Source: Rothia amarae (GTDB lineage: Bacteria; Actinomycetota; Actinomycetes; Actinomycetales; Micrococcaceae). Taken from it: 64,000 nucleotides of DNA. Under the pieces are notes generated by a model. It did no database searches. It was not told where the DNA came from and saw only the letters and a list, made by a program, of their open reading frames with translations. The position numbers were made by a program, and so were the translations under genes. Where the stretch lies: NCBI RefSeq assembly GCF_014705945.2, contig NZ_CP061538.1, positions 496,001 to 560,000 on the forward strand, written 5' to 3'. Positions 48,488 to 55,835 of the stretch are shown here, piece after piece (position 1 is the stretch's first letter; every line of letters starts with the position of its first letter).

Positions 48488-50137
48488 GTGACTATCTCTG
48501 ATTTTTCTCATGTTCCAGGCGCACCCCAAAGTACTGATTTGCCCGCTCTTCAGCAATTCGCTGAAGGTTTACGGGCCGCTAATTATTCTCAAGAAGCGAT
48601 TGCTACCCTCTTAGGCGATGGCGCCTATGCGGCTTTACAGCGCGATCAGATAGTGCCCGCACAACTACAGATAGAGAAACTCACCGCTTCCACAGATTTA
48701 TCTGAGCAAGAGGACGCGCTTGCCTTGATTGTTTCTTTCTTTCTGCTGGGAAACCCACTGACAGCATCCGAGCTTGACCAGGCACTGAACAGCAACTCAG
48801 GAAACGCTGTAGCGCTACTGCGCTCCTTAGGTGTTGCCGAGCCAAATATTGCAGAGACAGCCGAACCAACTTTCCGCGCTTCGGTAGATATACGCCCTCA
48901 TTCAGCAGACGACGGCGTCGACATCTGGGTGGCTTCAGACCTTCCAGCTCACATCCGCCGTGGTATCTTGCGCAAGGACCACGTTCTGGGAATCGGACAT
49001 GCGTCGAGAAATCTTGCTCAATTCATCGAACGTCAGGCTACGAGGCGAGCACTTGATTTGGGAACCGGCTGTGGAATTCAGACCTTTCACTTGCTGAGCC
49101 ACTGCGAACACGTCACTGCCACAGATATATCCGAGCGGGCTTTGGGGTTTACCGCTTTTAACCTTTTACTCAACGCTTCGGCATTGGGGATCGACCCCCA
49201 GCAGCAGGACGAGCGAGTCACCCTCAAGCTGGGATCCTTACTAGAGCCCGTGCAGGGAGAAAAATTCGATCTAGTAGTGTCCAACCCTCCCTTCGTTATT
49301 ACCCCGCGTTGTGAAGGAGAAGACGCCACATCCCAATTTACCTATCGCGATGGCGGCATGGCAGGAGACCAAATTGTTTCTACTTTAGTTCGCCAGCTCG
49401 GAACTGTACTTAACGACGGCGGAACCGCGCAGATGCTGGGTAACTGGGAAATCCCCGGCGATTCTGAGGGACAAAAAGAGTGGGATGAACGCCCCCGCCA
49501 GTGGGTCGGCGACTCCATGGAAGCATGGTTTATTCAGCGTGAAGAGCTCACCCCTGAGCAGTATGCCGAAACCTGGTTGCGAGATTCGAGTGAAACCGCA
49601 GATAGGGCTGCCTTTGAGGCGTCTTACCGTCGGTACCTGCTTGATTTTTCTGCACGCTCGGTCAGTGCGATCGGATTTGGCATGATTTGGCTACGCCGCC
49701 CCGCAAAGGACACTACCGAGCCCTTATTGCGCCGGTTCGAGGAAATCACTTACCCCATCCAGCAGCCCTTGGGGCCGTTTATGACCGAAGCAATCGACCT
49801 ATTCGATTCTTCAGCTCACCTCAGCGATGAGGAACTTCTTTCCCTTCATCTCATGGTGGCGCCCGACGTCACCGAAGAACGACATACCGAACCAGGCGCT
49901 GAACATCCCGGTGTAATTTTGCTGCGCGAAGGAGCAGGTCTGCGTCGAACTATCTTGGAGTCAACGGCGACTGCCGGCTTCGTTTCCGCCTGCGACGGCG
50001 AACTTTCGGTGGGGCAAATCGTCGGCGCTTTAGAAGCACTCCTAGGGTGGGACGGCGATTCCGAGCGGCAGGAACTCTTAGGTCACATTCGTGAGTTGAT
50101 CCTCAAAGGTTTCCTGAGAATAGATGCGGGGAACTAG
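48488..50137 (+). CDS. SAM-dependent methyltransferase (PrmC/RsmC-like, with extra domains)
   Basis: About 549 residues. The central methyltransferase domain has motif I LDLGTGCGIQTF (about 190) and motif IV VVSNPPFVITPR (about 264); NPPF is typical of enzymes that methylate nitrogen in glutamine, adenine or guanine. The N-terminal 140 residues and C-terminal 200 residues are extensions seen in a group of actinobacterial methyltransferases of unknown target. GTG 48488 (MTISDFSH) is the likely start; earlier codons overlap the divergent region. The next gene starts only 10 bases after the stop. Confidence 0.85.
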   Translation: MTISDFSHVPGAPQSTDLPALQQFAEGLRAANYSQEAIATLLGDGAYAALQRDQIVPAQLQIEKLTASTDLSEQEDALALIVSFFLLGNPLTASELDQALNSNSGNAVALLRSLGVAEPNIAETAEPTFRASVDIRPHSADDGVDIWVASDLPAHIRRGILRKDHVLGIGHASRNLAQFIERQATRRALDLGTGCGIQTFHLLSHCEHVTATDISERALGFTAFNLLLNASALGIDPQQQDERVTLKLGSLLEPVQGEKFDLVVSNPPFVITPRCEGEDATSQFTYRDGGMAGDQIVSTLVRQLGTVLNDGGTAQMLGNWEIPGDSEGQKEWDERPRQWVGDSMEAWFIQREELTPEQYAETWLRDSSETADRAAFEASYRRYLLDFSARSVSAIGFGMIWLRRPAKDTTEPLLRRFEEITYPIQQPLGPFMTEAIDLFDSSAHLSDEELLSLHLMVAPDVTEERHTEPGAEHPGVILLREGAGLRRTILESTATAGFVSACDGELSVGQIVGALEALLGWDGDSERQELLGHIRELILKGFLRIDAGN

Positions 50138-50147
50138 ACTAACTTCC

Positions 50148-50561
50148 ATGGTAGACCCAACACCGAACGACCATCCGCTCACCGATCTCAACGAAGAGAC
50201 CTGCTGGGCGCTTCTCAACGCGCACAGCATCGGTAGACTCGCTCTGCGGTCGGGAAACAAGATAGATATTCTGACCGTGAAATACGCCGTGTATCAAGGA
50301 CGTATCTATTTTCAGTCCAAAGCGGGTGAAAATTTTAGCTCTATTGTGGTGAGCCGCCAGGTTGCTTTTGAGATTGATGAGGCACGTAGCGATACCGTGA
50401 AATCGGTGATTGTACACGGAACTGCCGAATGGCATTTTCATGAGATGCCGATTAATCCTGCTGTGCTGGATGACGTGCGGATAGACAGCGGGGAGAACAT
50501 GAATTGGGTGGTAGTGACACCGGAATCTATATCGGGGCGAGAGCTCAGAATCCTCGGTTAG
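50148..50561 (+). CDS. pyridoxamine 5'-phosphate oxidase-like protein
   Basis: A 137-residue PPOX split-barrel protein with LNEETCWALLNAHSIGRLAL at the start and SGRELRILG at the end, the same layout as the paralogue at 42418. Probably binds a flavin or deazaflavin. It starts 10 bases after the methyltransferase stop, so the two are likely co-transcribed. Start ATG 50148 is preferred over the longer frame from 50124. Confidence 0.82.
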   Translation: MVDPTPNDHPLTDLNEETCWALLNAHSIGRLALRSGNKIDILTVKYAVYQGRIYFQSKAGENFSSIVVSRQVAFEIDEARSDTVKSVIVHGTAEWHFHEMPINPAVLDDVRIDSGENMNWVVVTPESISGRELRILG

Positions 50562-50600
50562 TGTTACGGTTTTGTTGAGATCTATTCAATATATGAGGAG

Positions 50601-50709
50601 CCAGGCAAGCACAGCACTAAGGTGAACTGGCTGGGTCTGGCATGAATCACCTAGTGAGCGCCAGCGAACTCGGTGAGAAGGTTAGTTCACCGGTGCTGTG
50701 CTTGCCTGG
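50601..50709 (+). repeat. structured repeat element, copy 1
   Basis: A 109-base element with a perfect 17-bp outer stem (50601-50617 with 50693-50709), a second 8-bp stem (50621-50628 with 50684-50691) and an inner CTGGC/GCCAG hairpin (50637-50641 with 50660-50664). TCACC (50647-50651) could also pair with GGTGA (50672-50676) as a pseudoknot. The core is about 90% identical to copy 2 on the other strand at 55502-55611. The remainder of the PPOX-topA gap (50562-50888) holds only a further 7-bp hairpin at 50712-50739. Confidence 0.8.
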
Positions 50710-50888
50710 GGACTGAGGACACTTTTGAATAGCCTCAGTTACATCAACGGGTGAGGTTCAACTTGCGGTGCAGAGTTCTTTGAATGTTGTGACCGCCCTG
50801 GAGCTATCTACCCACCCACTCAACTTTTGCCAGTCAATGTGCGCTATTGTTGAGCAATATATACCAGAGACCATTTTCAAGGAGCGCT

Positions 50889-53840: not shown

Positions 53841-54638
53841 ATGGATAGTACGCAGAATCATCAAATAGAGGTAGCGCTTTCTACGTCGTGCCTCTTTCCG
53901 CCTAGCGTTCCCGAGACCTTTTCGACGGCGGTCGATTTAGGGTATGACAGCGTGGAAGTCATGATTACCGGAAACGCACTTTCCCAAGAACCCCACGATC
54001 TCTTGGAGCTAGTGCAAAAGTTTCAGATTCCTATCTCTGCCATCCACGCGCCTACTCTTCTGCTTACCCAGCAGGTGTGGGGTCGTGCCTGGAACAAGAT
54101 GCAGATGGCAGCGAAAATGACCAATGATGTGGGCGCGAACGTCATTGTTGCTCACCCACCTTTCCGCTGGCAAAAAGCGTATGCCAAGAACTTCGTGGAG
54201 GGCGTCCGCGAAATTTCGCAGGCAGAGGGCGTCAAGATCGCTGTGGAGAATATGTACCCGTGGAGTGCTGCTGGGCAGGAAGTAGAAATGTATGCCCCTC
54301 ACTGGGATCCTACGCGGTTTGACTATGACTGGATGACGTGGGATTTCTCCCATGCTGCCGCAGCCAGGGTAGATTCGTTAGAATTCGTGAAGAAAATTGG
54401 AGACCGCCTAGGGCACGTGCATCTGACAGATGGTAGTGGGGACAAGGTCATGGACGAGCACCTCATGCCCGGATACGGGTCGCAGCCGGTAGCTGAGACC
54501 CTCGAATATTTGGCAGAGAAGAAGTGGAACGGCGTCGTCTGCGCTGAAATCTCAACCAAGGGTAAGAGCGCAGCTCTTCGAGATGAAATGTTGTATGAGA
54601 CTTTGCAGTTTGCACACCGCCACTTGGGCAGATCATAA
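53841..54638 (+). CDS. sugar phosphate isomerase/epimerase family TIM-barrel protein
   Basis: A 265-residue xylose-isomerase-like/AP endonuclease 2-type TIM barrel. STSCLFPPSVPETFSTAVDLG begins the barrel. Metal ligands are suggested by IVAHPPFRW, IAVENMYPW, TWDFSHAAAA (Asp-His), GHVHLTDGSGD (His-Asp) and CAEIST (Glu). The reaction is unknown. Start ATG 53841 follows AAGGAG. proC begins 10 bases after the stop, so the two form an operon. Confidence 0.85.
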   Translation: MDSTQNHQIEVALSTSCLFPPSVPETFSTAVDLGYDSVEVMITGNALSQEPHDLLELVQKFQIPISAIHAPTLLLTQQVWGRAWNKMQMAAKMTNDVGANVIVAHPPFRWQKAYAKNFVEGVREISQAEGVKIAVENMYPWSAAGQEVEMYAPHWDPTRFDYDWMTWDFSHAAAARVDSLEFVKKIGDRLGHVHLTDGSGDKVMDEHLMPGYGSQPVAETLEYLAEKKWNGVVCAEISTKGKSAALRDEMLYETLQFAHRHLGRS

Positions 54639-54648
54639 AGGAGAGATG

Positions 54649-55497
54649 ATGAGCGAGAAAATTGTAACTTTTATTGGTACTGGCTCCATGAATGGAGCCA
54701 TTGCATCAGGGCTGTTAGCTAGTGGCTTTCATGCCCAGAACGTGCGTGCTACCGTCCACAGCGCCAAAAGCGCTCAGGAGCTTCCAGAGAAGCTGGGAGA
54801 AGAAGCAGAAGGGGTAGAGGTCTTTTCCTCTGAGGTGTCCGCAGATGCCAACCAGAAAGCTGTTCAAGGCGCTGCGGCAGTCTTGCTTGGAGTGAAGCCC
54901 TATGACATCCTGGATGTCCTTGAATCTCTCAAAGACGCGCTGGATGAGGAAACCGTGGTGATTTCCGTTGCCGCGGGCGTTTCACTGGATTCCCTCCAAA
55001 AAGCGGCAGGGAAAAAACAACCTGTCATTCGCTGCATGCCTAATACTCCCGCGCGCGTAGGCAAAGGTGCCCTTGCATATTCTGCAGGTTCAACCGTCAC
55101 CGCTGAGCAACGCAAACTGGCAGAGGAAATCCTCGGAGCAGTCGGAATGGTTTTCCAGGTAGAAGAAGAACAGATGGATGCCGTCACCGCCCTCTCTGGC
55201 TCGGGTCCCGCCTACGCCTTCCTGCTAGCAGAATGCATGAAGAAAGCAGGTATGGAACTGGGGATTGACGAAGAACTGGCTAAAAATCTCGCCTCAACCA
55301 CCGTGGCAGGCGCAGGAGCACTTCTAGAAAAAGACCCTAATCCTGAGGATCTCCGCAAAGCTGTTACCAGCCCAGGTGGAACCACAGAACAAGCTATTAA
55401 GGCTTTTCAGGAGGGCGGTATCGAAGAGCTTACGTTGCGTGCCATGACAGCCAACGCGCAGAAATCTGCCGAGATGAGCCAGGAATATAACAAGTAA
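54649..55497 (+). CDS. proC: pyrroline-5-carboxylate reductase
   Basis: Last step of proline synthesis: NAD(P)H reduction of pyrroline-5-carboxylate. 282 residues. The N-terminal Rossmann fold is TFIGTGSMNGAIASGLL. The family block GVKPYDILDVL and the C-terminal signature VTALSGSGPAYAFLLAECM with VTSPGGTTEQAI are all present. ATG 54649 lies at proper distance from AAAGGAG; the ATG three bases earlier is too close. Copy 2 of the structured repeat begins five bases after the stop. Confidence 0.95.
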   Translation: MSEKIVTFIGTGSMNGAIASGLLASGFHAQNVRATVHSAKSAQELPEKLGEEAEGVEVFSSEVSADANQKAVQGAAAVLLGVKPYDILDVLESLKDALDEETVVISVAAGVSLDSLQKAAGKKQPVIRCMPNTPARVGKGALAYSAGSTVTAEQRKLAEEILGAVGMVFQVEEEQMDAVTALSGSGPAYAFLLAECMKKAGMELGIDEELAKNLASTTVAGAGALLEKDPNPEDLRKAVTSPGGTTEQAIKAFQEGGIEELTLRAMTANAQKSAEMSQEYNK

Positions 55498-55501
55498 CTT
55501 G

Positions 55502-55611
55502 CTAACTAGGCACAGCAACGGGAAACTAACCTTCTCACCTGAATTCGCTGGCGCTCATTGAGGTGATTCACGCCAGACCCAGCCAGTTCACCTTGTGCTG
55601 TGCCTGGTTAG
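55502..55611 (-). repeat. structured repeat element, copy 2
   Basis: Read on the minus strand, this 110-base segment matches copy 1 (50601-50709): same inner hairpin, same unpaired blocks, same order of stems. The outer 17-bp stem (55595-55611 with 55502-55518) has two mismatched positions. Its outer eight base pairs differ from copy 1 in sequence but still pair, so both arms changed together. The 8-bp second stem is weaker here. It lies directly after proC, antisense to it. Confidence 0.8.
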
Positions 55612-55635
55612 TCTCTTCGACATAAGTTAAAAAAA

Positions 55636-55835
55636 GAAAGCTTCGACTGTAGGGAATCAGTCGAAGCTTTCCTGAATGCTCACTCGAAAGTTTGCATTCC
55701 AGTTTTGTTGTCTCAACGTCCGGCTTAGGGGATGCCAGCTCTTTGTCGAGAGTCCTAAACTGATTTGAACGGGTTCGCAATCCGTTCAGTAATCACTCGC
55801 ACCTTTAGAGGTGACTCCATCATAAGCACCTTGAG
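55636..55835 (-). ncRNA. candidate small RNA with own terminator
   Basis: On the minus strand, 55671-55636 forms a perfect 14-bp hairpin followed by TTTTTTT, a strong rho-independent terminator. Upstream of it on the same strand are three compact hairpins: GAATGC/GCATTC, GAACGG/CCGTTC and CACCT/AGGTG. No conserved protein is encoded, and a 10-bp inverted repeat near 55903-55952 separates the region from trkA. I cannot match it to a known RNA family. The 5' end is a guess from the AT-rich stretch at about 55835-55890. Confidence 0.45.

Follow-up and report, generated by a model that had tools for sequence, protein, structure and literature searches.

The MITEs of prokaryotes that derive from IS5 are short, non-coding, intergenic elements that occur in many copies and fold into a stable hairpin, and the units of REP elements are 20–40 nt long. 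Correia elements of Neisseria are MITE-like too, can be inverted in place and are described as lying mostly upstream of genes, with promoters, and the BOX, RUP and SPRITE repeats of pneumococci are structured intergenic repeats that insert into one another (PMC10969869). Template switching between the arms of an inverted repeat is reported to homogenise the arms and to invert the spacer between them (PMC8604942), and to create and maintain RNA hairpins (PMC8794818). Here we describe a dispersed family of hairpin elements in the genus Rothia, two copies of which lie in the window, that is, in the whole 64-kb stretch of DNA that was analysed. The family resembles IS5-derived MITEs in its complete copies and carries a core that is conserved inside stems of variable sequence.

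Two copies of the element in the window

The window holds copy 1 at 50595–50713 on the plus strand (109.8 bits) and copy 2 at 55498–55617 on the minus strand (100.6 bits), both matched by R2, a covariance model built from 84 copies of many genomes; no third copy was found in the 64 kb with this model at E ≤ 0.1. The two copies lie where an earlier note on this DNA had placed them, and their likeness, which that note had also reported, amounts to 90% identity over about 97 bases, including gap-free blocks of 34 nt (97%) and 30 nt (90%). The folding energies are −69.8 kcal/mol for copy 1 (z −7.7) and −48.5 kcal/mol for copy 2 (z −3.7), and none of 200 shuffles did as well in either case.

From its 5′ end, the element consists of an outer stem P1 of about 16–20 bp, a second stem P2 of 7 bp, a conserved unpaired strand TGGCTGGGNCTGGCRTGAA and the inner stems P3/P4, which end in GAGC–loop–GCGA and are followed by AGARGG and by the way back through P2 and P1. 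In copy 1, the left arm of P1 (50601–50617) pairs with the right arm (50693–50709) as covarying helix 1, and the arms of P2 are GGTGAAC (50621–50627) and GTTCACC (50685–50691), in place of which other copies have GGCAAGC and GCTTGCC. The unpaired stretch TGGCTGGGTCTGGCATGAA occupies 50628–50646, its columns being mostly invariant in an alignment of 24 copies from the same genome; P3/P4 with the GAGC–loop–GCGA tip, covarying helix 3, lie at 50647–50676, and the 3′ strand GAAGGTTA, partly conserved in the same alignment, at 50677–50684 (all on the plus strand). As had been claimed from these two copies, the sequence of the outer stem is unlike between them and yet paired in both, with one unpaired outer-stem position in copy 2.

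Copy 1 follows a 145-aa ORF (50124–50561, plus strand), the stop codon of which (50561) lies 15 bases ahead of it, and is upstream of topA (ORF listed from 50847). Copy 2 comes directly after proC, encoding pyrroline-5-carboxylate reductase (54583–55497, plus strand; Pfam P5CR_dimer and F420_oxidored). The contexts first given, before topA and after proC, need rewording: as copy 1 comes after the stop codon of the 145-aa ORF and copy 2 directly after proC, both copies sit at the 3′ end of a gene. Among the matches listed, none in other genomes lies beside topA, and at the site of copy 1 the 288 bases of the window correspond to 113 in genome G032. A terminator-like hairpin with a long T run, noticed by eye, adjoins copy 2 at 55620–55690 of the window on the minus strand.

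A dispersed family within Rothia

The genome from which the window comes contains about 30 copies of a hairpin unit of about 115 nt, as expected of the structured dispersed family that had been proposed. BLAST with copy 1 as query gave 27 matches, two of which are pieces of one copy; R1, a covariance model built from 24 own-genome copies, gave 32 at E ≤ 0.1, and model matches overall number 30–32. Further copies in relatives, the absence of which the earlier note had named as refuting its reading, were found in 20 of 35 Rothia genomes, with 2–86 matches each (R2, E ≤ 0.001), at most 104 candidates being scored per genome so that these counts may be low. When 197 genomes drawn from the taxonomic family were searched (R2, E ≤ 1e-4), matches appeared in 8 of the 13 listed as Rothia and in none of the 184 from other genera (31 genera), in a search with stricter filters than that of Rothia and with 18 candidates scored per genome among those listed. 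The exact core pattern occurs in the genome collection in 13 stretches, all from records named Rothia, R. nasimurium, R. nasisuis and R. terrae among them. The same pattern had no match in viral contigs, and carriage of the family by phages was rejected on this ground. Within the genomes searched, the family is restricted to Rothia.

At the gathering threshold, the element in the window has no match in Rfam. At relaxed thresholds, 8 of 18 loci gave nine weak matches, all of them outside the element, and 10 loci gave none. A known RNA family was rejected for want of an Rfam covariance-model match.

A conserved core inside covarying stems

In a plain MAFFT alignment of the 24 own-genome copies, the covariation score of the structure is 0.496 against 0.204 after shuffling, 94% of cells are paired and double changes occur in 24 of 33 pairs; slid structures score 0.055–0.111. 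Because the genome holds about 30 copies and double changes are present in 24 of 33 pairs, chance is excluded. For 84 copies in an alignment fitted to the structure, covariation is 0.814 against 0.203 and 96% of cells are paired, and pairs with a double change number 29 against 26.3, a value reached by 11 of 500 shuffles and one of five measures taken.

The sequence of P1 is highly variable, the left arms of 118 copies falling into 65 groups, the larger of which are largely made up of orthologues. The outer stem differs between most unrelated copies and is still paired, and the core is recognisable throughout while P1 varies. Free variation in the core loops, which would have spoken against a selected fold, was not seen, as the unpaired core columns of the 24-copy alignment are mostly invariant. 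A pseudoknot of CTGGC with the P4 loop, suggested by eye, was dropped because some copies do not keep it.

Other structured sequences were noticed alongside the family. L338, L340, L341, L343 and other loci carry a second family of dispersed hairpins, in which the stems vary and the tip TTCCGAGCGCGCGAGGAAA is constant, and the tip pattern, with one mismatch at most, is present in 24 of 35 Rothia genomes, a control pattern giving 1 match in all. At L254/L314, L339 and L347 this second family is nested in the core or inner loop of the first. At L024, L067, L070, L307 and L311, the usual P3 side gives way to an inner module, inserted or alternative, of approximately the form GATGAG–stem–GGATGCGAGC...GCGAGCA–stem–CGAAT. 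A hammerhead-like reading of the nested GATGAG–stem–CGAAT, based on the hammerhead motif, was abandoned, as it has no Rfam match and is not kept in other copies.

Copies lie at gene ends

Position relative to genes was determined for 140 copies (144 matches minus 4 that overlap better ones, other genomes being represented by their best-scoring matches), none of which lies inside a gene predicted by a home-made gene caller. The gaps that hold them are codirectional in 84 cases, convergent in 43 and divergent in 11, with 2 at an edge. Of the intergenic bases in 14 control stretches, namely the window and 13 loci that hold copies themselves, 28% belong to divergent gaps, and copies avoid divergent sites (p 4e-9). 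Within codirectional gaps, the copies are a median of 35 bases from the preceding stop codon and 101 bases from the next start, with 61 of 84 nearer the stop. A tie between orientation and the neighbouring gene was ruled out, as 39 of these copies point the same way as the gene and 45 the opposite way. The suggestion in the earlier note that a cis-regulator of one pathway is unlikely was borne out. Divergent inverted pairs of copies stand at several places; two copies in divergent orientation flank a small ORF at L151:9838-10272, PIN/VapC-like as judged by eye.

An A- or T-rich tract is found at the stem base, on either side, in 12 of 111 stems (a few cases, for example in set A of the orthologous sets described below), and ordinary intrinsic termination is therefore not general. 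The hairpin followed by a T-rich tract by which an intrinsic terminator is defined is not a property of the family.

Ends resembling those of an IS5-like insertion sequence

The same genome contains an insertion sequence (IS) of 904 bp with ends GAGGCTTATTCATAAGG at five places (G000:C1:1549730-1550625 and four more; loci L102, L104, L108, L112 and L114), and the proteins of these copies are 97–100% identical. The transposase has the domains DDE_Tnp_4 and HTH_Tnp_4 and resembles IS5-family models, scoring below their cut-off. Ten further places in this genome encode relatives at 63–64%, and one more encodes a fragment. In all 16 IS copies read, both ends are within one mismatch in 12 bases of GAGGCTTATTCA.

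Such IS-like ends (three mismatches at most) were found on both sides of 8 of 140 element copies, compared with 0 of 140 in the wrong orientation and 0 of 537 distant control windows. For a single IS-like end the margin is smaller, with 21 of 140 element copies and 12 of 140 wrong-orientation controls. The eight two-ended copies are 146–173 bp long, and two of them, like 5 of 16 IS copies, have the identical 3-base flanks looked for as a target-site duplication. Five genomes show, at the orthologous site of set D, a complete element bounded by G[AG]GGCTTATTCA...TGAATAAGCCCC. In the window, copy 1 probably has a full extent of about 160 bp (50577–50736, plus strand) with weak terminal inverted repeats, GAGATCTATTCA on the left (50577–50588) and TGAATAGCCTC on the right when set against the IS repeat GAGGCTTATTCA; taken alone, these repeats are not convincing as evidence of ends. 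No terminal repeat is recognisable by eye in copy 2.

Relatives of the transposase (E ≤ 1e-10) occur in 19 of 35 Rothia genomes, namely in 18 of 20 with the family and 1 of 15 without it (Fisher p 7e-7, relatedness ignored). For IS256 transposases, taken as a control, the figures are 9 of 20 carriers of the family and 4 of 15 non-carriers (p 0.31). The exceptions are G017 and G032, with 86 and 2 element matches and no detected IS copy, and G005, which has the IS, in copies with stops, and lacks the family. Presence of the element differs between genomes in sets B–F; several of the absences are due to deletion, and none of the sites showed a clean pre-insertion state.

Because IS-like ends are present in a minority of copies and the transposase co-occurs with the family, we conclude that the family is a MITE lineage, most copies of which have lost their recognisable ends. 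As befits MITEs, the elements are short and non-coding (146–173 bp; 0 of 140 overlap predicted genes), and terminal inverted repeats are shared at the level of the family and missing from most single copies. The MITE half of the MITE- or REP-like origin first suggested is thus supported by the IS-like ends and the co-occurring transposase; the REP half falls, no RAYT transposase having been found in the own genome. The Y1/RAYT transposase PF01797 was detected in 3 of 35 Rothia genomes, all three of them carriers of the family, and not in the other 32, which include the own genome.

Inversion and turnover at orthologous sites

Orthologous copies of sets A–F were found by their flanks, six of eight joined flanks being used, and a further set, arg, came from the model matches. 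In the arg set, which occupies the gap between argD and argF (genes named by eye), the core has one orientation in three genomes and the other in two; the outer stem is retained in place, changes in one arm being matched in the other, and all five share the same 69-base core. The core is also flipped inside a retained stem in set C, in G018 compared with G003, G017 and G028, and in set D, in G028 compared with G004. The complete element is inverted in set D between G017, G018 and G019 on one side and G015 and G030 on the other. No inversion was seen among the 7, 5 and 3 copies compared in sets A, B and F.

At the same sites, other genomes show a deletion, replacement by another element or no element. 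In set C (L287, L288, L289, L290 and L291), the gap between the same convergent genes keeps a canonical terminator, judged by eye, in five of ten genomes, and the terminator is missing in the five that have the element stem in the gap (a stem remnant in G015). In set F (L315, L316 and L317), three genomes have at the element site what by eye is an unrelated long hairpin with no core.

Template switching would explain the core inversions, as it fits both the matching of the arms and the flipping of what lies between them, and for this reason covariation alone is no proof of selection. The compensatory change on which the earlier note relied is real, but taken alone it is weaker evidence of a selected fold than that note assumed, because template switching, too, can maintain matching arms in a hairpin (PMC8794818, PMC8604942). 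Site-specific inversion is unlikely, because the stems are without any conserved sequence. Since the stems vary so much, an outer stem formed from a palindrome already present at the target was considered as well. The case in point is G015 in set C, which keeps the stem without the core; it retains part of the inner left arm in addition, and we therefore read it as a deletion and not as the ancestral target.

Strand bias in stem mismatches and slow change of the core

When one base of a paired arm mutates, the result is a G–U mismatch on one strand and an A–C mismatch on the other, and the two are expected in about equal numbers if neither strand is selected. The counts are of isolated mismatches only, in arms aligned by a symmetric score; the analyses of arms cover 114, 111, 114 or 118 of the 140 copies, the rest being duplicates or without recognisable anchors or arms. 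On the element's own strand, there are 54 G–U and 13 A–C isolated mismatches in 114 copies (p 4e-7), and counting once per position and cluster leaves 47 and 13 (118 copies, 65 clusters; p 1.2e-5). Counts from outside the own genome come from best-scoring matches, which could slightly favour G–U, and the own genome, which is free of this, gives 13 to 1 by itself (p 0.002). The frequency of A–C is about that of other mismatch types (47 over eight types). A coarser count that includes internal loops shows a weaker bias, 127 to 90 (114 copies; p 0.014).

Divided by context, the ratio of G–U to A–C is 20:3 in copies of the same sense as the gene, 9:2 in those of opposite sense (small numbers) and 18:8 in the remaining contexts. 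This surplus of G–U over A–C suggests that the element's own strand has been selected for its fold, and it is seen in copies with and against the gene. It thus appears that this strand mattered in its folded form, whether as RNA or as single-stranded DNA, which agrees neither with a symmetric cruciform in the DNA nor with a hairpin in the neighbour's mRNA.

The core was also compared with its flanks (mostly genes, 60–330 bases away) by mean pairwise difference, substitutions only, in six sets, set E being unused. Core and flank differences are 0 and 0.073 in the arg set, 0.017 and 0.097 in set A, 0.012 and 0.05 in set B, 0.029 and 0.088 in set D and 0.078 and 0.129 in set F. Set C is the exception, with 0.067 in both and one copy with an internal deletion. 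Orthologous cores are therefore slower than their flanks in five of six sets, in a sample that leans towards conserved copies, as the query copies were high-scoring matches. The excess of G–U over A–C on one strand and the slow core at orthologous sites are the evidence for selection.

Origin and possible role of the family

We consider it probable that the family is a Rothia-specific lineage of MITEs spread by an IS5-like element and reshaped by template switching, that the fold of one strand is selected, and that the working molecule is single-stranded, most likely RNA. An IS5-like (DDE_Tnp_4) IS with GAGGCTTATTCA ends most likely spread complete elements of about 160 bp into gene ends past stop codons, with a module between the ends that folds into two successive stems, the outer one long, around a conserved unpaired strand and an inner hairpin that ends in a GA-type tip. 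The ends would then have decayed, most copies presumably being fixed and the fold kept. Template switching at the nearly perfect hairpin very likely contributes to the complementarity of the arms and flips the inner module. Selection would act on one strand's fold whatever the direction of the neighbouring genes, from which it follows that the working molecule is probably a single-stranded form, most likely RNA made by read-through or by transcription of its own, and some partner may bind the conserved core of this form.

More tentatively, the internal fold could have become, or have been from the start, a functional single-stranded unit encoded by the element, whose core stayed under selection after mobility was lost; a small RNA, present in as many as 86 copies in a genome, would be its most likely form. 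The stem could then be rewritten and the orientation flipped by template switching harmlessly, because the strand that matters is the element's own.

The copies could instead be hairpins used by the host at the 3′ end of the preceding gene, as terminators or mRNA stabilisers, which we regard as somewhat unlikely. Their position just after stop codons, their depletion between divergent genes, the set C terminator (by eye) that is kept in five of ten genomes and missing where the element stem stands, and the loss of the core but not the stem in G015 would all suit such a role. However, a terminator or stabiliser has no need of the conserved core, an A/T-rich tract stands at the base of only 12 of 111 stems, and the mismatch bias follows the element and not the gene, the opposite-sense copies giving 9:2 (small numbers).

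It is unlikely, too, that we are looking at neutral MITE remnants in which template switching alone makes the covariation and the inversions and no fold is selected. Homogenised arms and an inverted spacer are its reported outcomes (PMC8604942; for the upkeep of hairpins, PMC8794818), and both are seen here. Neutral correction between arms should give A–C and G–U equally, however, and the ratio of G–U to A–C is 47:13; moreover, the unpaired core is conserved while the stems diverge, and is slower than the flanks in five of six sets.

That one strand's fold appears selected whatever the direction of the flanking genes would also suit a hairpin of single-stranded DNA that serves as recognition site for a recombinase or replication protein, in the manner of integron attC sites or IS200/IS605 ends. 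With Y1 transposases in 3 of 35 genomes and complete elements that end like DDE-type IS, we give this reading a low probability. A REP element moved by a RAYT transposase is very improbable, for although divergent inverted pairs at several places, gene-end location and tens of copies are in keeping with it, Y1/RAYT was not found in 32 of 35 genomes, the own genome included, and the unit is about 115 nt instead of 20–40.

If the selection on one strand that we favour is real, the family provides a genome-wide natural experiment, with tens of copies per genome in which the core is fixed and the paired stems vary. Losses and in-place inversions between close species would then allow template switching to be separated from selection in bacteria, and a genus-wide structured nucleic acid that is absent from Rfam would have a partner to be found. 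The second nested family, of similar design with a variable stem and a constant tip, suggests a wider class of such elements in Rothia.

Comparison with known systems

Among open-licence papers, as represented by their titles and the starts of their abstracts, no description of the family was found; no mention of Rothia was found in PMC2267715, and no paper among them was found on Rothia-sucC RNA. As a mobile element, this is a new MITE family. Its strand-specific invertible fold, apparently kept after the loss of mobility, would be an undescribed variant within the open-licence literature.

The conserved unpaired core inside covarying stems is a feature shared with the riboswitch and ribozyme families of Rfam, none of which matches the element (in the window at the gathering threshold and at 18 loci at relaxed thresholds). 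With BOX, RUP and SPRITE of pneumococci, compared by description, the family shares its structured, intergenic nature and the insertion of repeats into one another (PMC10969869) and differs in that a terminator-like tract is mostly absent. It is like REP, BIME and REPIN elements in its gene-end location, free orientation and occasional divergent inverted pairs. Unlike them, it is much longer, has another fold and comes without a RAYT transposase found in the own genome.

Correia elements share with the family that they are MITE-like and subject to inversion in place (PMC10969869). In Rothia, however, it is the inner module that is turned round, within a stem that has different sequences in different copies, and the elements stand at gene ends, whereas Correia elements are described as mostly upstream of genes and with promoters (PMC10969869). 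IS5-derived MITEs of prokaryotes resemble the family in being short, non-coding, intergenic, numerous and folded into a stable hairpin, and in having terminal inverted repeats in common with a resident IS, in Rothia in a minority of copies. The Rothia family differs from them in that most copies are without ends and nevertheless have the fold and the strand-specific pattern of mismatches, the core being for the most part slower to change than its flanks.
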